A stretch of DNA of 43,029 bases from an uncultured Bacteroidales bacterium (GTDB taxonomy: Bacteria; Bacteroidota; Bacteroidia; Bacteroidales; Paludibacteraceae): assembly GCA_900321005.1 (NCBI GenBank), contig ONUF01000013.1, positions 1-43,029 on the forward strand, read 5' to 3'. This document shows positions 4,412-19,858 of the stretch, piece after piece. Under the pieces are notes generated by a model. The model saw only the letters and a program-made list of their open reading frames with translations, made no database searches and was not told the DNA's origin. The translations under genes and the position numbers were made by a program. Position 1 is the stretch's first letter; each line of letters begins with the position of its first letter.

Positions 4412-5628
4412 AGGGCGATCTCTCCTCTCATTAGTTTGGGTAACAACGTATCGCGGAGGGTTGCGAGGCGTTGAGATTCTGTTCCATTCTCCTGAATCTT
4501 ATCATGCAGTACAGAAATAATCTTATTAAACGATTTTACAATATCGCAGGATGGAATTATTAAAGGCTCCTTTTCTATAAAATCCTTTACCGCAAAATTC
4601 TTAATACCAGAAGTTCCGTTTTCGTATCCAAACATGATTTTTTGATCATATTTGTATTTCCATGAATAATACAAATAAGTGTAATAGTCCGCTAATGGCC
4701 TAATTGTACGACAAAAATTGGTACAAACGATGTCATAATCGTATTTCTGAAGTAGTTTTTCGGTAATCAGGCATACTCGCCCGGTTGATACGGTTGCTGT
4801 ACCTCCGGAGATTTCTACAACGATGTCTCTGTTTTTTAATCCTTTATTTTGATAATTCTTTTCGAGAATATACCTTTGAGGAGTTTTTCCTCTTATTCCA
4901 TTGTTTATATCTTCAAAATCACAGCCTCTAATACATGCCACGCTGTGGTCATAGTTTCCTTCGGGTCTTTCTTTTCCCCAATCTCCACTTATTGTTTTTT
5001 CTATAATATCATTATACACACCTTCTTTCCAATCTTCGGGCATTTTTCCACCCCAAGGCTCAAAGTCCACAAACCAAGATTTGAAAAGGGCTTGTGCTTG
5101 TGCTTCCAAATTGCGGTTGATGCGATTATTATTCTCAATCTTATCATCCAAAGAAGAAAGGATCGATACGATTTTTCTTTGTTTTTCAATATCGGGTATA
5201 TGAATCAAAAACTCTTTGACGATATCCGTTTTTAAATTCATAAAGACACTTCCATTTGCTTGATTTCCAAGTATACTTCTTATTTCGATAAACTTATAAT
5301 ATAAAAAATCTTTTAGTATTCCTCTAAAATTATCAATTACAAGCCATCCGTCATGTACGCACGCAGTGATTCTAGATATCTTAGGTAATCCGGGTGTAGC
5401 ACTATTAGATACAATTAATGTTCCAGGTTCGATGAGTACGCTATGAGAAACCCCTTCTTCAATTATAAATTCTTTTGTTTTGTCTATATACTTCGAGTCG
5501 GTTGCTGTCGCATCTGAAATCTTTATCCAAGGCATGCCTTGTGAAGACAAAAATTCTTGTATAGGACGAGGTGAAGCACCTCGTCTAATATCGCAAACCT
5601 CTCCTAATTTAACCGTTTTCCACTCCAT
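4408..5628 (-). CDS. hsdS: Type I restriction specificity subunit S (HsdS)
   Basis: HsdS sets the bipartite DNA target of the complex. The 406 residues show the usual duplicated layout: target-recognition domain 1 at about 1-147, conserved helical spacer at 148-192 (EKQRKIVSILSSLDDKIE..., ending SWFVDFEPW), domain 2 at about 197-375, and a shorter distal helix ending LLPKLMRGEIAL. The start lies 2 nt after the hsdM stop. Base composition over both recognition domains is clearly more AT-rich than hsdM and hsdR, as expected for domains exchanged by recombination. No second hsdS, inverted partial copy or recombinase is in the window, so shuffling of this gene is not supported here. The target sequence cannot be predicted. 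Confidence 0.96.
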   Translation of the reverse strand: MEWKTVKLGEVCDIRRGASPRPIQEFLSSQGMPWIKISDATATDSKYIDKTKEFIIEEGVSHSVLIEPGTLIVSNSATPGLPKISRITACVHDGWLVIDNFRGILKDFLYYKFIEIRSILGNQANGSVFMNLKTDIVKEFLIHIPDIEKQRKIVSILSSLDDKIENNNRINRNLEAQAQALFKSWFVDFEPWGGKMPEDWKEGVYNDIIEKTISGDWGKERPEGNYDHSVACIRGCDFEDINNGIRGKTPQRYILEKNYQNKGLKNRDIVVEISGGTATVSTGRVCLITEKLLQKYDYDIVCTNFCRTIRPLADYYTYLYYSWKYKYDQKIMFGYENGTSGIKNFAVKDFIEKEPLIIPSCDIVKSFNKIISVLHDKIQENGTESQRLATLRDTLLPKLMRGEIAL

Positions 5629-5630
5629 AC

Positions 5631-7133
5631 TTATCCAATCTTATAACCGATGGACTCTAATTGTTTGCGGATCTCGGCTTCCAACCCATGACCTTTGTCG
5701 AAGAGTTCGGAGAGTTCGCCCGTGAGGCGGGTCATTTTCTGCTCAAAGGGTTCGCCATCATCCTCTTGCTCCGCTATACCGACATAGCGTCCGGGAGTGA
5801 GGATATAATCCTGTTGGGCTACATCATCCAATGAAGCGACCGCACAGAAGCCTTTCTCATTGTTAAGCGTACCTGCTTCGAACTGACGGAAAGTATCGGC
5901 GATACGGAGGATATCCCCCTCAGACAGTTCACGCAGTTTGCGCGTGACCATCGTACCCATATTGCGTGCATCGACAAAGAGCACTTTGTTCTTCTGTTTC
6001 TTATTGCGGTTGATGAACCAAAGGCTGACGGGAATACCGGTAGAATAGAAAAGTTGGTTCGGCATAGCGACGATGCCTTCCACCAGATCGGCTTGCACGA
6101 TCTTGGCACGGATGTCACCCTCACCGCCGGTCTGGCTACTAAGGGCACCATTGGCGAGTACGAGACCAATCTTGCCGTTCGGCGAGAGGTGATGGATCAT
6201 ATGCTGAATCCATGCGAAGTTGGCGTTGCCTGCGGGCGGGATGCCGTATTTCCAACGGACATCTTCGAGCAAAGAGGGTTGCCCCCATTTGTCCGAATTG
6301 AAGGGCGGGTTTGCCATGATATAATCCGCTTTGAGCGTAGGATGCTGGTCGTCAAAGAACGTATCCGCATAGCTCTTACCAAGGTCGGCTTCGAGACCAC
6401 GGATAGCGATATTCATATGCGCCATCTTCCATGTAGAGGGGTTCGCTTCCTGACCATAGATAGAGATATTGCGTATCTCTTTCTGGTGGGAGCGGATGAA
6501 CTTGGCGGATTGTACGAACATACCTCCCGAACCGCAACAAGGGTCATATATACGTCCGTTGAAGGGTTGCAGCACCTCGACTATCGTGCGGACGATACAG
6601 GAAGGCGTATAGAACTCTCCGGCGTTCTTGCCTTCCATCGAGGCGAACTGCTGGAGGCAGTACTCATAGGTACGACCGAGCAGGTCTTTTTCATCAGCCG
6701 CTCCGTGCATCTGGATATTCGTGAACAGATCGACGACATCTCCGAGACGGCGCTTGTCCAACTCAGGGCGTGCGAAGTTCTTGGGTAAGATACCTTTGAG
6801 GCGCGGGTTCTCCTGTTCGATGAGACGCAGCGCATTATCAATGGTCACACCGATAGTGGGCTGATGCGCGTCCGCAGAGATAACCGACCAACGGGCACCT
6901 TTTGGCACAAAGAACACATTCTCGGACAGATACTCATCCTTATCTTCGGGATCGGCATACGGGTCTTTGGTTATTTCCGCATATTTGGTTTCAAAACTAT
7001 CGGATATATACTTTAGGAAGATGAGTCCGAGGACAACCCCCTCGTATTCCGATGCGTTTAAGTTACCGCGCAGCACGTCGGCTGCTTTCCAGATCTTGTC
7101 TTCAAATCCGATGGAGATAGTGTCTTTTGCCAT
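5631..7133 (-). CDS. hsdM: Type I modification methyltransferase (HsdM)
   Basis: HsdM is the N6-adenine methyltransferase of the type I complex; with HsdS it protects host DNA. The 500-residue protein has an N-terminal helical HsdM_N domain (about 1-140), the SAM-binding motif I DPCCGSGG at 197-204 and the catalytic NPPF at 275-278 (MANPPFNSDKW). A C-terminal helical tail contacts HsdS. The start at 7133 lies 4 nt after the stop of the Sel1-like gene, and hsdS follows 2 nt after its stop, so all four genes form one tight operon. Confidence 0.97.
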   Translation of the reverse strand: MAKDTISIGFEDKIWKAADVLRGNLNASEYEGVVLGLIFLKYISDSFETKYAEITKDPYADPEDKDEYLSENVFFVPKGARWSVISADAHQPTIGVTIDNALRLIEQENPRLKGILPKNFARPELDKRRLGDVVDLFTNIQMHGAADEKDLLGRTYEYCLQQFASMEGKNAGEFYTPSCIVRTIVEVLQPFNGRIYDPCCGSGGMFVQSAKFIRSHQKEIRNISIYGQEANPSTWKMAHMNIAIRGLEADLGKSYADTFFDDQHPTLKADYIMANPPFNSDKWGQPSLLEDVRWKYGIPPAGNANFAWIQHMIHHLSPNGKIGLVLANGALSSQTGGEGDIRAKIVQADLVEGIVAMPNQLFYSTGIPVSLWFINRNKKQKNKVLFVDARNMGTMVTRKLRELSEGDILRIADTFRQFEAGTLNNEKGFCAVASLDDVAQQDYILTPGRYVGIAEQEDDGEPFEQKMTRLTGELSELFDKGHGLEAEIRKQLESIGYKIG

Positions 7134-13647: not shown

Positions 13648-14232
13648 ATGTTTTTAATACAGAACACATTAGTCAGTCTGGACGTGCTCGAGAAAGAGTT
13701 CTGCTGCGACCTCGACACCTGCCGCGGATGTTGCTGTATAGAAGGCGACGCAGGTGCTCCGCTGACGGCCGAAGAGGAAGAGAAGATACAAAGTATCTTA
13801 CCGGTCCTGCTGCCCGAGATGACCAAAGAGGCAAAAGCCGTAGTCGAGGCGCAGGGCATCGCCTATAACGATCCGTCGAACGAACGCGTGACCTCTATCG
13901 TCAACAACAAAGACTGCGTCTTTGCCCGTACGGACCATAACGGCTGGTGTTACTGCCTGATAGAGAAAGCGTACAACGCCGGAAAGATAGATTTTAAGAA
14001 ACCCGTCTCGTGTCACTTGTATCCGATACGACTGACCCAAGTAGGGGAATATACAGGACTTGAATACCACCGCTGGGATATTTGTCATTGTGCGCGGCTC
14101 AAGGGCAAGAAAATGCACCTGCCGCTGTATCAATTCCTCAAAGAACCCCTCATACGCCGCTTCGGACAAGCCTGGTACGATGAATTGGAACTAACCGCCA
14201 CAGAGTGGAAAAAACAATGCGCGCAGAGATAA
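13648..14232 (+). CDS. DUF3109 family cysteine-rich protein
   Basis: 194 residues with the Cys pattern of DUF3109: CCDLDTCRGCCC near 19-30, then CVF, CYC, SCHLYP and CHCAR. These Cys are arranged as for a metal or Fe-S cluster site, but the biochemical role of the family is not known. The C-terminus is a helical RRFGQAWYDELE segment. The last 16 nt overlap the start of cinA, so translation is probably coupled. Confidence 0.88.
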   Translation: MFLIQNTLVSLDVLEKEFCCDLDTCRGCCCIEGDAGAPLTAEEEEKIQSILPVLLPEMTKEAKAVVEAQGIAYNDPSNERVTSIVNNKDCVFARTDHNGWCYCLIEKAYNAGKIDFKKPVSCHLYPIRLTQVGEYTGLEYHRWDICHCARLKGKKMHLPLYQFLKEPLIRRFGQAWYDELELTATEWKKQCAQR

Positions 14233-15473
14233 TTACCATAGGAGACGAGTTACTCATCGGTCAAGTGGTGGACACCAACTCCGCCTGGATGGCCGAACAA
14301 CTCAATGAGATAGGCATCGAGTTATACCAAATAACGTCGGTGCATGACCAGCGCGAGCATATCGTCGCGGCGCTCGACGAGGCCTTCAGCAGGGCCGATA
14401 TCGTGCTGACGACCGGTGGGCTTGGTCCTACGAACGATGATATCACGAAGCATGTGCTGTGCGAGTATTTCGATACACACCTTATAGAAGATCAGCGCGT
14501 GCGCGCGCATATTATGGACCTGTACCGCGAGCGACCGGATGTGCTCAACAAACTGACCGCTACGCAATGGTTAGTGCCCGAGAGCGCAGAGATCCTCGAG
14601 AATCGGGTAGGGTCCGCGCCCCTGATGGTCTTCCACCACGGCCCGCAAATCCTGGCGTCCATGCCCGGCGTGCCGTACGAGATGAAGATCGCCATGACCG
14701 AACAGATCCTGCCGTATCTAAGCCGTCAGTTATCAGCGGTCAGCCATCATATCTTGCACCGCACCTTGCAGGTGACCGGCATTCCGGAGTCGAGTTTGGC
14801 GATTCTTCTGGAGGAATATGAGGCTTCCATGCCATCCGGCCTGCACTTGGCGTACCTGCCGAAAGACGGTATTATCCGCTTGCGTCTCTCGTCCTACGGC
14901 GACTTGACCGAAGAAGAGATGGCGCTTTGGTTTGAGAAACTCCAATCGCAAGTACGCGATTATATGATAGCCGACACCGACGATCCCTTGGAGGTCATCT
15001 TAGGCAATTTGTTGAAAGCCAAGGGTCAGACGATCGCCACCGCAGAGAGTTGTACGGGAGGCAAACTCGCTTCCTTGCTCAACAAACATGCTGGCAGTTC
15101 GGCCTTCTATTGGGGCTCGATCATCAGCTACGACAACAGCGTCAAAGAGCATCTTTTGGGTGTGCCGGCAGAACTGATAAACACGCACGGCGTGGTGAGC
15201 GAAGAAGTAGTGCGCGTAATGGCAGAGTCCGTTCGCAAACAACTCAATACTGATTACAGTATTGCCACTTCCGGCATCGCAGGTCCTTCAGGAGGTACTG
15301 TAAACAAGCCTGTTGGCACCGTTTGGATAGCCTGGGCGACCCCTCACGGAACGACCGCCGAGTGCTTCCATCTCGGCAAATTACGCGAGCAGATAACCGA
15401 TAGAGCATGTGTGAAGGCGCTCGTGGGAATGATACAGAAGTTGAAAGTTGAAAGAATGAAAGTTGAAAGTTGA
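14217..15473 (+). CDS. cinA: CinA: molybdopterin-binding-like and nicotinamide-nucleotide amidase protein
   Basis: The chosen start is ATG 14217 (MRAEIITIGDELLIG...), the usual N-terminus of the family; an in-frame ATG 12 nt upstream would add MEKT. The 418 residues hold an N-terminal MoCF_biosynth domain (TTGGLGPTNDDITK) and a C-terminal PncC domain (IATAESCTGGKLAS, SGIAGPSGG), which deamidates NMN in pyridine nucleotide salvage. Three CAGNNNT heptamers at 14727-14747 code for a surface segment (RQLSAVSHH). The C-terminus KVERMKVES is coded by GTTGAAA repeats, as in ruvX. Confidence 0.95.
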   Translation: MRAEIITIGDELLIGQVVDTNSAWMAEQLNEIGIELYQITSVHDQREHIVAALDEAFSRADIVLTTGGLGPTNDDITKHVLCEYFDTHLIEDQRVRAHIMDLYRERPDVLNKLTATQWLVPESAEILENRVGSAPLMVFHHGPQILASMPGVPYEMKIAMTEQILPYLSRQLSAVSHHILHRTLQVTGIPESSLAILLEEYEASMPSGLHLAYLPKDGIIRLRLSSYGDLTEEEMALWFEKLQSQVRDYMIADTDDPLEVILGNLLKAKGQTIATAESCTGGKLASLLNKHAGSSAFYWGSIISYDNSVKEHLLGVPAELINTHGVVSEEVVRVMAESVRKQLNTDYSIATSGIAGPSGGTVNKPVGTVWIAWATPHGTTAECFHLGKLREQITDRACVKALVGMIQKLKVERMKVES

Positions 15474-15481: not shown

Positions 15482-18331
15482 ATGAGTGAATTAGCGCAGT
15501 TTATATTTGAACCGTCGATCACGCAGTCGCTGTTGTGGCTGACGATCGTGATGACCATCGGTCTATGGTTGGGAGAGAAGGCAAAGATCGGCCATTTTTC
15601 CCTGGGTGTCACGTGGGTGCTCTTTATCGGCATTGCCCTGGCATCCTTAGGCGTCAAGATCGACCATGCGGTTGGGCAGTTCGCCAAAGACTTCGGTCTC
15701 ATACTCTTCGTCTATTCCATTGGTTTGCAGGTCGGACCGTCTTTCTCTCCCTTTAAAAAGGGAGGATTGCAGCTCAACATGCTGGCAGCCGCTATCGTGC
15801 TGCTCGGCTGCGTATGCACGATCGCTTTACATTATATCACGGGCATCGACATGTCCACCTTGGCGGGTGTCATGTCCGGTGCTACGACTTCTACGCCTTC
15901 GCTGGCCGCTGCCCAACAGGCCTATTTTGACCTGACCGGCACGTCTAACCCCGATATCGCGACAGGCTATGCGGTCGCTTATCCCCTCAGTATAGTAGGA
16001 GTAATCCTGGCCTTCGAGCTCATACGTAAGTCCTTTAAAGTCAGTCTTCCCGAAGAAGAGAAACGGCTGAAAGAGGCGGCCCGCGAGACCACCGAAGAAC
16101 CTATTTGCGTGGATTTGACGCTTAATAATCCGCAAATAGACACCCTTACGCTCGCCGAACTGCAGCGTCTATGCCCGATAAAAGAGATGATCGTCAGTCG
16201 TGTCATTCGAGTCGATGGTTCGGACGAATTGGTGAATGAACAGACGACCTTCCGGAACGGCGATACACTGCGTGTATTAACCGACCAACAGCATGTCGAT
16301 ATGCTGCGTCTGTTGGGTCAGATGAAGAACTACGACCTGCATGTGCAGAGTGAAAAATCCGACCATCTTATCTCCCGCCGTATCGCTGTCACGCGACCGG
16401 AATGCAACGGCAAGCGTATTCGTTCGTTTAACCTGCGCCAGCAGTACCACGCTACTATCACGCGTGTCAGTCGTGCCGGTATTGACCTGCTCGCTACACC
16501 CGATATGATTCTTCAGCTTGGCGACCGCCTGATGGTAGTCGGCGACAAAGACGATGTAGGTAGGGTAGCAGAGACCTTCGGTAATGAGCTCAAGCGCCTC
16601 GATGTGCCGCATCTCTTGCCGGTATTTTTCGGCATGGTACTCGGTATATGCGTAGGCCTGCTGCCTATTCCGCTGCCCGGTTTGGGGACGACCTTTAAGT
16701 TAGGTCTCGTAGGCGGTTCACTCATCGTAGCCATCCTCATCGGCCATTACGGACCGTATTATAACATGGTCACTTTCTCCACCACATCAGCGAACATGAT
16801 GTTGCGGCAAGTGGGCCTGACGCTTTTCTTGGCGGCCTTGGGTCTCTCTGTAGGAGAGAACTTCGTGCCAACACTGGTCAACGGTGGTTATCTGTGGATT
16901 GGTTACGGTTTTATCATCACCATTGTGCCGCTGTTTGTGGTGGGCGGTATCGCGTATAAATGGCTGCATGTCAATTTCTTCAATGTGGTGGGCCTGCTGA
17001 TCGGTTCGATGACTTCGGCGATGTCCTTGCCGTACGCGCAGTCGCTCTCGTCGGAGAACAACCAAGCTGCGGTTTGTTACGCCACCGTCTATCCGTTTAC
17101 CACTTTCCTGCGCGTGATGGCTGCCCAACTCTTAGTGCTGATCTTCTGCTCGTTTACCACGCCGGACAGCATCGCGCCGCAAGCTCTGCCGGCCACTGTT
17201 AACACGGCGCTCGGCGAAGAATACGGACCGACGCTGACGATGGATGACAACACGCTGTACTTTGTGGGCCTGAACCGCGGAGAGACGAATGTGACGGAAG
17301 ATATCTTTGTGGCCCGTCGTGATCGCAAGACCGGCGAGTGGAGTGCCGCGCAGACAGTGCCCGGTTTATGCAGTCCGTATCGTAACGAAGCACCGACATC
17401 CGTCTCCGGAGACGGCCGCACGATGTTGGTCTTCGTCGAAGGCCGCATGTGCTTCTCTGTACGCGGGCCGCAAGGATGGTCGGAGCCCCGTCCCCTTCCG
17501 CGACACCTGCAGTTAGGTAACTGGCAAGCCGACGCGATGATAACCGCCGACGGCAGCGCCTTGCTTTTTGCCGCCAATTATCCCGTTGAAAACGAAGAAA
17601 AAGCGAGCCTTAATATCTTTGTAAGTGAACGCACCGAAAGCGGGTGGGGCACACCGTACTCTATCGGACCGCTCATCAATACTGCAGGCATGGAGCGCTC
17701 GCCTTTCCTGCATCCCGACATGAAGACCCTTTATTTCTCTTCGGATCGCGAAGGCACGCTCGGCGAACTTGATGTATGGGTGTCAAGGCGCTTGGCCGAC
17801 ACGTGCTGGAACTGCTGGTCCGAACCCGAAAACCTCGGACCGACCATCAACACCGCCGGTCGGGACTGCTGGTATAAGATCTCGGCGGACGGTAAGACGG
17901 CTTACTATGCCCAGAAAAGCGGCCGCAGGCATGATATCTATACCGTCACGCTGCCGGAAGACAAGCGCCCGGAGCCTATTACGGTGCTTAGCCGGAACGA
18001 AGCGGTAGCTATCAACAACCTGCTCTTTGAGACCGCCAGTGACCAAATCCTGCCCGTCTCGCTGCCGGAACTGAAACGTATCGCCCTTTTCGTGCAAACA
18101 TACGGCTACGCCGTACGACTCGCCGGACACACGGATAATATCGGTCAACCCGAAGCCAACAAAGATCTCTCGCAGCGCCGCGCGGAGTCCGTAAAACGCC
18201 AATTGGTAGAATACGGTTGCGACGAAGCGAAAATCAAAGCCTTCGGTTACGGAGATACCAAACCTGTGGCCTCCAATGACACCGAAGAAGGACGTCAACA
18301 AAACAGACGCGTAGAGATAACAATACAATAA
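15482..18331 (+). CDS. Fusion of an AspT/YidE-type transporter with a PD40 propeller and an OmpA domain
   Basis: One uninterrupted frame of 949 residues. Residues 1-558 are a complete transporter of the aspartate-alanine exchanger (YidE/YbjL) type: a hydrophobic half, two RCK_C/TrkA_C-like domains at about 206-285 and 298-370, and a second hydrophobic half whose last helix is at 545-558 (MAAQLLVLIFCSF). The natural family ends at about this point. From about 575 to 810 come PD40 beta-propeller repeats (YGPTLTMDDNTLYFV, RSPFLHPDMKTLYFSSDREG, DCWYKISADGKTAYYAQ). Residues 841-949 are an OmpA-type peptidoglycan-binding domain (AGHTDNIG, DLSQRRAESVKRQL, NRRVEI). If the C-terminus is periplasmic, the transporter would be tied to the cell wall. 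A recent gene fusion by deletion is the alternative. Confidence 0.9.
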   Translation: MSELAQFIFEPSITQSLLWLTIVMTIGLWLGEKAKIGHFSLGVTWVLFIGIALASLGVKIDHAVGQFAKDFGLILFVYSIGLQVGPSFSPFKKGGLQLNMLAAAIVLLGCVCTIALHYITGIDMSTLAGVMSGATTSTPSLAAAQQAYFDLTGTSNPDIATGYAVAYPLSIVGVILAFELIRKSFKVSLPEEEKRLKEAARETTEEPICVDLTLNNPQIDTLTLAELQRLCPIKEMIVSRVIRVDGSDELVNEQTTFRNGDTLRVLTDQQHVDMLRLLGQMKNYDLHVQSEKSDHLISRRIAVTRPECNGKRIRSFNLRQQYHATITRVSRAGIDLLATPDMILQLGDRLMVVGDKDDVGRVAETFGNELKRLDVPHLLPVFFGMVLGICVGLLPIPLPGLGTTFKLGLVGGSLIVAILIGHYGPYYNMVTFSTTSANMMLRQVGLTLFLAALGLSVGENFVPTLVNGGYLWIGYGFIITIVPLFVVGGIAYKWLHVNFFNVVGLLIGSMTSAMSLPYAQSLSSENNQAAVCYATVYPFTTFLRVMAAQLLVLIFCSFTTPDSIAPQALPATVNTALGEEYGPTLTMDDNTLYFVGLNRGETNVTEDIFVARRDRKTGEWSAAQTVPGLCSPYRNEAPTSVSGDGRTMLVFVEGRMCFSVRGPQGWSEPRPLPRHLQLGNWQADAMITADGSALLFAANYPVENEEKASLNIFVSERTESGWGTPYSIGPLINTAGMERSPFLHPDMKTLYFSSDREGTLGELDVWVSRRLADTCWNCWSEPENLGPTINTAGRDCWYKISADGKTAYYAQKSGRRHDIYTVTLPEDKRPEPITVLSRNEAVAINNLLFETASDQILPVSLPELKRIALFVQTYGYAVRLAGHTDNIGQPEANKDLSQRRAESVKRQLVEYGCDEAKIKAFGYGDTKPVASNDTEEGRQQNRRVEITIQ

Positions 18332-18340
18332 TCACTATTT

Positions 18341-19858
18341 ATGAAAAAATTCTTCTTTTTAGCAGCCCTGCTGCCCCTATTGAGCTTTGCTCAAGAACGT
18401 ATCATGGTCATCGCCGACCCGCACGTATTGCCGCAGTCGATCATTGACCAGGAAGCCAATTTTGACGAGTACATGCAGACCCAGCGTAAGATGTTGGACC
18501 TCAGTGAACCGATTTGGCATGCCCTGTTGGACACCGCGTTGAAGCACAAACCGGACCTGGTACTCATCCCCGGTGACCTCACCCGTGATGGTGAGACTGC
18601 AGCGCACGATACGGTTTCGAACGGCATTGCACGCTTGCAAGCAGCCGGTATTCGCACGCTGGTTATTCCGGGAAACCATGACCTGCCTGGCAATAACTGG
18701 GAGGCGCTGTATCCGGGTACTTTTGAGAACGCCGAGACGGATGCTGACTCGCATTCCTTTGCCGTAGAACCCATCAAGGGACTGACGGTAATCGGTATCG
18801 ACGGGTCGGACGGCAAGGCCTCTATCGGTAAGTTGTCGTCGGCTACCCAGGCTTGGATCATGGCGCAAGCAGACGCAGCTGTTGCCAAAGGCAACATGAT
18901 CATTGCGATGACGCACTGGCAGATCCTGGAGCATTTCGATGGACAAGCCACCCTCGAGAGTTCGTGCCGTTTCAACAATGCGGATGAACTGCGTGACCAA
19001 CTCATGCATCACGGCGTACACCTCGTGCTCACCGGCCATTTCCACGTCAACGGTATCACGACCTTCCGCGACACCACCGGCCTGACGAACGACAGCCTCG
19101 TAGAGATCACCACCGGTTCGCCAATCACTTATCCGTGCCCTTACCGCTGGCTTACGATCTCTTCCGACCGCAAACGTGTAGCCGTAGAGACCGAGTATAT
19201 CCAATCCTTAAAGGACATCGCAGACCTCAACGCTTACAGCCGCGACTGGATGTATGAGCACACCCAGAATATGGTTCCCGGTCTCGCTACCCGAGCATGG
19301 TCAAAAGTGTTTGCCAAATGGGACGAGAAAATCGTACCGATGCTGGAGCAGGTGCACCTGGAAGCGTATGCAGATATGTTGAAAGGCTTTTTACCGCAAG
19401 ACGAGGAAACACAGATAGCGCTCGCACAAACCTACCTGGCGAAGCCCGCTTCCAACCTCTATCTCTTCCATTCGGAGGCGAACGAAAACGAACATCCACA
19501 AGAAGGAAAAGCGTTCGCTGACGCGGTCTATGCGGGTATAGAAGGTATGATGGATGATATATTCGGTACAGATTGGATGGGAAAAGCGCTTAAGGGGATT
19601 TTCCTGCCTTTTGCGCTCGCAGCTGTAGAAGAACCTGTTCAGTCAATGGTAGAAGATAAGACCTTACGGAACACGCCTCACGCCGATGTTACCGATGACT
19701 TGCATCCTATATTATATATCAATGATGCCGAGCGTACAGGCTTCGAGTCGTTGAAAGACGAAGCATCGCGCGCTATCAAATTTATCCTTAATGGACAGCT
19801 ATTCATCCGGAAGGGTGACCGTCTTTACACGCCGCAAGGACAACAAATAGCGCAATAA
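18341..19858 (+). CDS. Secreted calcineurin-like metallophosphoesterase
   Basis: A 505-residue protein with a signal peptide at 1-18 (MKKFFFLAALLPLLSFAQ). The metallophosphoesterase core is complete: IADPH (D26, H28), GDLT (D79), GNHD (N112-D114), a later MTHW histidine and the GHFH pair. These bind the two metals of a periplasmic or surface phosphohydrolase; the substrate is not predictable. The C-terminal 180 residues are helical and less conserved. It starts 9 nt after the fusion gene and ends shortly before a terminator. Confidence 0.93.
   Translation: MKKFFFLAALLPLLSFAQERIMVIADPHVLPQSIIDQEANFDEYMQTQRKMLDLSEPIWHALLDTALKHKPDLVLIPGDLTRDGETAAHDTVSNGIARLQAAGIRTLVIPGNHDLPGNNWEALYPGTFENAETDADSHSFAVEPIKGLTVIGIDGSDGKASIGKLSSATQAWIMAQADAAVAKGNMIIAMTHWQILEHFDGQATLESSCRFNNADELRDQLMHHGVHLVLTGHFHVNGITTFRDTTGLTNDSLVEITTGSPITYPCPYRWLTISSDRKRVAVETEYIQSLKDIADLNAYSRDWMYEHTQNMVPGLATRAWSKVFAKWDEKIVPMLEQVHLEAYADMLKGFLPQDEETQIALAQTYLAKPASNLYLFHSEANENEHPQEGKAFADAVYAGIEGMMDDIFGTDWMGKALKGIFLPFALAAVEEPVQSMVEDKTLRNTPHADVTDDLHPILYINDAERTGFESLKDEASRAIKFILNGQLFIRKGDRLYTPQGQQIAQ

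Follow-up and report, generated by a model that had tools for sequence, protein, structure and literature searches.

A transporter of the AspT/YidE type joined in frame to a propeller and an OmpA domain in one genus of the Paludibacteraceae

This study analyzed a gene at positions 15482 to 18331 of the forward (+) strand of contig ONUF01000013.1 (NCBI GenBank assembly GCA_900321005.1), a stretch of 43,029 nucleotides, here called the window, from an uncultured Bacteroidales bacterium of the Paludibacteraceae. The gene opens with ATG and reads through 949 codons in one frame, with no internal stop. A first-pass annotation had described one open frame joining an AspT/YidE-type transporter with two RCK_C-like domains to a propeller and an OmpA domain, and the frame, Pfam, and NCBIfam confirmed this description. 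In the Pfam search, the protein passed the curated cut-offs of Asp-Al_Ex (2.9e-71) and TrkA_C, both in two stretches, and those of PD40 and OmpA, and the NCBIfam model PRK03818 ("putative transporter") passed its cut-off on residues 12-557. The parts of the gene are as follows:

15482..18331, + strand: whole fused gene, 949 amino acids (frame, Pfam, NCBIfam, and 38 other fused relatives)
15482..17152, + strand: AspT/YidE-type transporter, residues 1-557 (Pfam, NCBIfam, and alignment)
16049..16612, + strand: central hydrophilic region, residues 190-377, which holds the TrkA_C (RCK_C-like) domains and, with 27 lysine or arginine residues, is taken as cytoplasmic
17096..17152, + strand: last transmembrane helix, hydrophobic core at residues 539-557 (hydropathy; helix 528-557 in the structure model)
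17153..17206, + strand: linker, residues 558-575, typical text FTxPDSIxPQxLPxTVNT (alignment; predicted local distance difference test (pLDDT) <50 at residues 559-563)
17207..17989, + strand: PD40 propeller region, residues 576-836, strands at 579-823 (Pfam PD40, model, and Foldseek)
18002..18328, + strand: predicted peptidoglycan-binding OmpA domain, residues 841-949, with D885, N893, and R900 (Pfam, alignment, and the residue spacing of PorE)

The transporter part ends at Ser557, the final residue in several unfused AspT proteins, and the join lies between residues 557 and 558 (window 17152/17153). The earlier claim that the join falls exactly at the last membrane helix was accurate, as the helix ends at residue 557. 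Across the join the window reads ...LVLIFCS-FTTPDSIAPQALPATVNT (beginning ...IFCS-FTTPDS), followed by the propeller. AspT proteins of the sister clade in the same genus terminate in ...LLVLFFCS or ...FFCH and then a stop, and PD40 was not found downstream of them in the stretches translated. Secreted PD40-OmpA paralogues (L108-L110), with propellers 54-56% identical, begin with what by eye looks like a signal, followed by the mature text; the text after the signal, for example SFDSVPTPLPPAINA (DSxPTPLPPAINA-type), aligns with the fused linker. By these alignments, the join position is the former AspT stop and the approximate start of the mature part of the secreted paralogues, which indicates that the last transporter helix has replaced the signal peptide and stands in for it, as the first-pass annotation had suggested.

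The fusion is not confined to the window. Among 56 loci fetched from genome contigs, mostly labelled Bacteroidales or Paludibacteraceae and many of them from metagenome-assembled genomes (MAGs) of the rumen and gut, 38 carried it, and together with the window they give 39 distinct fused sequences, all in one genus. The fused relatives are 79-95% identical to the window protein and come from separately assembled MAGs, with goat, sheep, yak, pig, dairy cattle, reindeer, and roe deer among the sources. One unbroken frame was found in 38 of the 39 sequences; the frame of the remaining one, L048, breaks at a point within AspT and not near the join, and this sequence was excluded from the omega and join counts, for which n is therefore 38 instead of 39. 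The source genome (G000; 2.1 Mb) carries the fused gene once and an unfused AspT paralogue of 50% identity on a different contig.

Draws of genomes at increasing taxonomic depth agreed with this restriction to one genus. A full-length fused frame was present in 20 of 101 genomes of the genus, with one more cut by a contig end, and in 26 of 300 genomes of the family, again with one more cut; all family matches at 1e-200 fell in one of 33 genera, a threshold at which a much more diverged fusion would not show. In the phylum draw (296 genomes, 38 with the transporter family), a C-terminal extension of this size was found only in the window protein. The only other frame of more than 700 amino acids in that draw (G617) was an upstream stop-to-stop extension and not a fusion. 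Residues 500-650 had been proposed for finding homologues of the same architecture across the join; within the genus the 38 other distinct sequences are such homologues, but among 393 genomes of the order, 23 of which matched at 1e-12, a clean match across both sides occurred only in the window. Six genomes (G703, G910, G730, G883, G106, and G628) whose match range or frame length suggested a join-spanner were rejected, three having unfused AspT and three PD40 proteins without AspT, and the remaining matches were judged by match ranges only. Locus L100 appeared to continue past its stop, and what follows proved to be an unrelated gene. In the open-licence literature, a transporter-PD40-OmpA fusion protein of this kind was not found reported. 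The parts are known; their combination, a surprising architecture confined to one genus, did not turn up in that literature.

Conservation extends over the whole chain. F555-C556-S557 is invariant (38/38), and Ser557 is encoded by AGT in 20 fused genes and by TCN codons in the others, the serine being kept throughout. Median omega, determined from the 19 closest of 703 pairs (proportion of synonymous differences, pS, <0.5), was 0.022 for AspT, 0.116 for the linker, and 0.062 for PD40 (19 pairs), and 0.047 for OmpA (17 pairs). Both halves are under purifying selection, with low omega (0.02-0.06). Identities of AspT and tail correlate at 0.70 across the 38 fused genes.

The transporter part resembles the AspT/YidE family (AAEx; PF06826, PRK03818) in its whole family length, its duplicated Asp-Al_Ex domain, and its two TrkA_C domains, which sit between the Asp-Al_Ex repeats as is characteristic of AAEx; it differs by 392 extra residues with propeller and OmpA, a tail of about 44 kDa in a protein of 104 kDa. 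Members of this family are exchangers of carboxylates or amino acids. Asp_Al_Ex is listed with ten helices, two re-entrant, and an outside N-terminus (PMC8396727), and the AspT of Tetragenococcus is described as a dimer with ten helices and two re-entrant ones (PMC9527358). With an even number of helices and the N-terminus outside, the C-terminus should also be outside, and that of the transporter part is predicted by family topology to be periplasmic, a case that the first-pass annotation had considered. An outside C-terminus would allow the last helix to serve as an export signal, and a dimer like that of the studied AspT would give two tails per unit. The charge pattern fits the positive-inside rule in outline, with the 27 basic residues of loop 190-377 and an invariant Arg544 (38/38) ahead of the last helix.

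To the same protein belongs an AlphaFold model from 57 sequences (mean pLDDT 75.5; predicted template modelling score, pTM, 0.47), in which the last helix ends at residue 557, the propeller is confident, the OmpA fold is present, and the transporter part, of moderate confidence, agrees with the family topology in outline. Our own count of the model strands gave five propeller blades. Foldseek searches with the model returned the cryo-EM and X-ray structures of AspT first and then TolB and other propellers, including carbohydrate-active propeller enzymes, and OmpA domains.

The tail was compared with PorE, an outer-membrane lipoprotein of the type IX secretion system (T9SS), and with CHU_0125. 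Like the tail, these have a PD40 propeller ahead of an OmpA_C-like domain, and the ligand residues agree; the five-blade propeller of PorE is also seen in the fused protein by blade count on the model. D885, N893, and R900 are present in all 38 fused proteins with the spacing of D576, N584, and R591 of PorE, residues described as holding diaminopimelate (PMC7192894), and the OmpA domain of the fused protein probably binds peptidoglycan. In contrast to PorE, the fused protein has no TPR domain among Pfam matches up to E 1, no CRD domain between propeller and OmpA (where paralogues L108 and L110 have an insert in the alignment), and no lipoprotein signal. It scores 108.7 bits against the 600-bit cut-off of the NCBIfam T9SS_PorE model and is also far below the cut-off of CHU_0125, and its tail follows a transporter with an inner-membrane location.

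Putative TolB-Pal fusion proteins have been reported, and PorE is read as a CpoB-TolB-Pal fusion in the account given in PMC12204202, where TolB is described as six blades with a Rossmann-fold domain. The fused tail shares with TolB and Pal a TolB-like propeller and a Pal-like domain (Foldseek), but it has five blades, lacks a Rossmann-fold domain between helix and propeller in the model, and carries both parts on one chain at the inner membrane. For this phylum, the Bacteroidota, a recent survey reports no identifiable tol-pal loci. Inner-membrane machines held to the wall through OmpA-like domains (MotB/PomB, TagL type) are grouped together in PMC7192894. The fused protein would resemble them as an inner-membrane machine anchored to the wall by an OmpA-like domain, and PomB and MotB chains were among its matches; the membrane part there is a motor or secretion subunit, whereas here it is a complete secondary transporter.

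On balance, we lean towards the reading that the gene encodes an inner-membrane AspT/YidE-type exchanger tethered to peptidoglycan by a TolB-Pal-like tail, in one chain. The surrounding locus bears on this reading. Both neighbours of the fused gene were named by eye and not by family search:

14205..15473, + strand: gene that we take to be a CinA homologue, directly upstream of the fused gene
18341..19858, + strand: presumably a secreted metallophosphoesterase-like gene, directly downstream of the fused gene

Within the fetched DNA of loci L038-L088, CinA is present in 48 of 51 and the metallophosphoesterase in 28 of 51. The metallophosphoesterase-like gene is far more variable (45-79% identity) than the adjoining genes and is often absent from the locus. 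Sorting by state was performed on 62 non-duplicate loci (74 fetched loci plus the window, minus 13 duplicates, with chosen loci from the genome draws included). The results revealed 39 loci fused with OmpA, 2 fused without OmpA, 1 cut, 13 with AspT only, 5 that keep just PD40-OmpA, and 2 in which PD40 shares a frame with CinA. Contig ends cut L071 and L028, and L071 was relabelled as cut. Eight of the AspT-only loci form the sister clade; the other five lie inside the fused clade.

Individual loci show further arrangements. L065 (4744-7269) and L066 (1146-3722) are transporter-propeller fusions that stop ahead of OmpA. CinA runs in frame, through a hydrophobic segment and without a stop, into PD40-OmpA in L098 (820-aa frame) and into PD40 in L099 (705-aa frame), AspT being absent from both; this frame may yield one protein or contain an internal restart. 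The stand-alone PD40-OmpA frames of L083, L085, L088, and L132 have no ATG ahead of the propeller, TTG seems to be their start, and they overlap the end of cinA by 7-70 bases. Two tandem PD40 proteins (frames of 820 and 895 aa, the shorter without an OmpA match) occur in L102 (G082 contig 61).

In the PD40-OmpA tree, rooted with the paralogues, tail-only and CinA-linked rows nest within fused groups. Starred forks unite L098 with L062, L099 with L066, L085/L088 with L053 and L047, and L086 with L055/L082, and L083 and L084 nest at weaker forks. Because these rows sit inside fused groups, AspT has probably been lost several times, although two of the outgroup rows have long branches and the tree by itself does not separate gain from loss. 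Linker text is retained in L084 (CCSFTPSDT), L098 (LCSFEVPDT), and L099 (LCAFTTPDT), as if the last helix had been left behind as a signal. Between L050 and L060, AspT is 99% identical, compared with 85% for CinA, 79% for PD40, and 77% for OmpA; DNA identity reaches 95-99% only from the AspT start to the join (L050 about 4950-6600), with flanks at about 70-80%, and AspT looks to have been exchanged between species as a cassette ending at the join. L066 and L099 share 98% DNA identity over 3.35 kb from the join to the contig end, and their CinA genes share 78%. The tree of CinA and Def holds 58 of the 62 rows, L044, L057, L077, and L119 having no CinA in the fetched DNA.

Several observations weigh against a tethered single chain. 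The pTM of 0.47 is moderate, and the model does not fix the placing of the tail relative to the membrane. In 12 of the 38 fused proteins, a loose signal-peptidase-I rule finds a site no more than 7 residues from the end of the helix. The fused clade includes five AspT-only, five PD40-OmpA-only, and two PD40-with-CinA loci, and two fused genes lack OmpA. Judging from the comparisons above, the histories of AspT and tail differ in part, and segments have been exchanged at the join. This instability of the locus speaks most strongly against the halves being obligatorily linked: neither depends on the other, and because relatives keep AspT alone, PD40-OmpA alone, or transporter and propeller without OmpA, neither half strictly requires a wall anchor.

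One alternative is that the frame gives two products, the last helix being a cut internal signal peptide or translation restarting within that helix, so that the fusion would be only a device for export and co-expression. We consider this unlikely. In 5 of the 62 loci, and in more genomes besides, PD40-OmpA is a protein of its own that begins with a short hydrophobic stretch, and Met546 is encoded by ATG in 34 of 38 fused genes, but because unfused AspT also has Met546, it needs no second purpose. Codons and synonymous sites around the join gave no support for a concealed start or signal: no start-capable codon near it is common to all 38 genes, and fourfold-site entropy around it (1.50-1.58, gene mean 1.53) shows average, unconstrained synonymous variation. 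Nor is there a shared cleavage site. The signal-peptidase rule fails near the helix in 26 of 38, the window included, and a lipobox is present in none (0/38; no G, A, or S before C556), which led us to reject a lipoprotein tail; both are rules of thumb and not a trained predictor. The simplest reading, short of proof, is one chain that stays uncut.

Instead, the propeller may be the working part. It would then serve the transporter in the periplasm by sensing, regulating, or binding a partner, and OmpA would be a dispensable anchor. The retention of the propeller in L065 and L066 after the loss of OmpA leaves room for a propeller role of its own, and its Foldseek neighbours include TolB and carbohydrate-active propeller enzymes. 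However, 39 of the 41 fused genes whose end is known retain OmpA, which is under purifying selection, and the two OmpA-less propellers may be decaying, because their branches in the tail tree are long (0.40 and 0.44). This alternative is less probable than two products from one frame.

We regard as highly improbable that the fusion is a by-product of an unstable locus, in which neighbours came into one frame by chance, each half functions independently, and joining them brings no benefit. Either half has been lost repeatedly, PD40 also shares a frame with CinA, and segments are exchanged at the join, all of which would suit this view, but it does not readily explain 38 unbroken frames that keep F-C-S and a recognizable linker, with Ser557 held across AGT and TCN codons; omega is low on both sides, although that is also expected if each half works alone. 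An assembly or frameshift artefact, conceivable for a MAG 78% complete in 54 contigs, can be dismissed because the identical join occurs in 38 other distinct sequences; the fusion is neither chance nor assembly error.

Returning to the tethered exchanger, we propose that an otherwise ordinary AspT/YidE-type exchanger has a last helix that would leave the membrane on the periplasmic side, exporting and anchoring the propeller and OmpA tail. If the OmpA domain holds peptidoglycan, the transporter would be tethered to the wall. This would be an inner-membrane-to-wall link made from parts that PorE of the Bacteroidota uses for an outer-membrane-to-wall link, the reverse of PorE. The fusion probably arose once in the genus, when a secreted PD40-OmpA protein may have been joined in frame to the end of aspT and the AspT helix assumed the task of the signal peptide. 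As the role, we choose positioning and tethering of the transporter at the wall; wall sensing by the fused protein is possible. It is very unlikely, though slightly less so than a mere by-product, that the tether is energised, with a TolB-Pal-like module on an exchanger coupling the transport cycle to wall binding or strain, and that the locus acts as a modular dock, with the same tail on a transporter, on CinA, or alone and with parts swapped between species at the join.

The fusion is genuine, though it varies known parts and is limited to one lineage of rumen and gut bacteria, whose relatives make the wall-binding module separately. It appears to be a conserved natural example of a multi-pass transporter whose last helix takes the place of a signal peptide, and of the transfer to the inner membrane of a wall-binding module that outer-membrane lipoproteins are known to carry. 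Because transporter and wall-binding module form one continuous protein, the transporter is probably attached to the cell wall; provided that the chain remains whole, the architecture predicts a wall-fixed transporter and an inner-membrane-to-wall link in Bacteroidota built from TolB-Pal-like parts.
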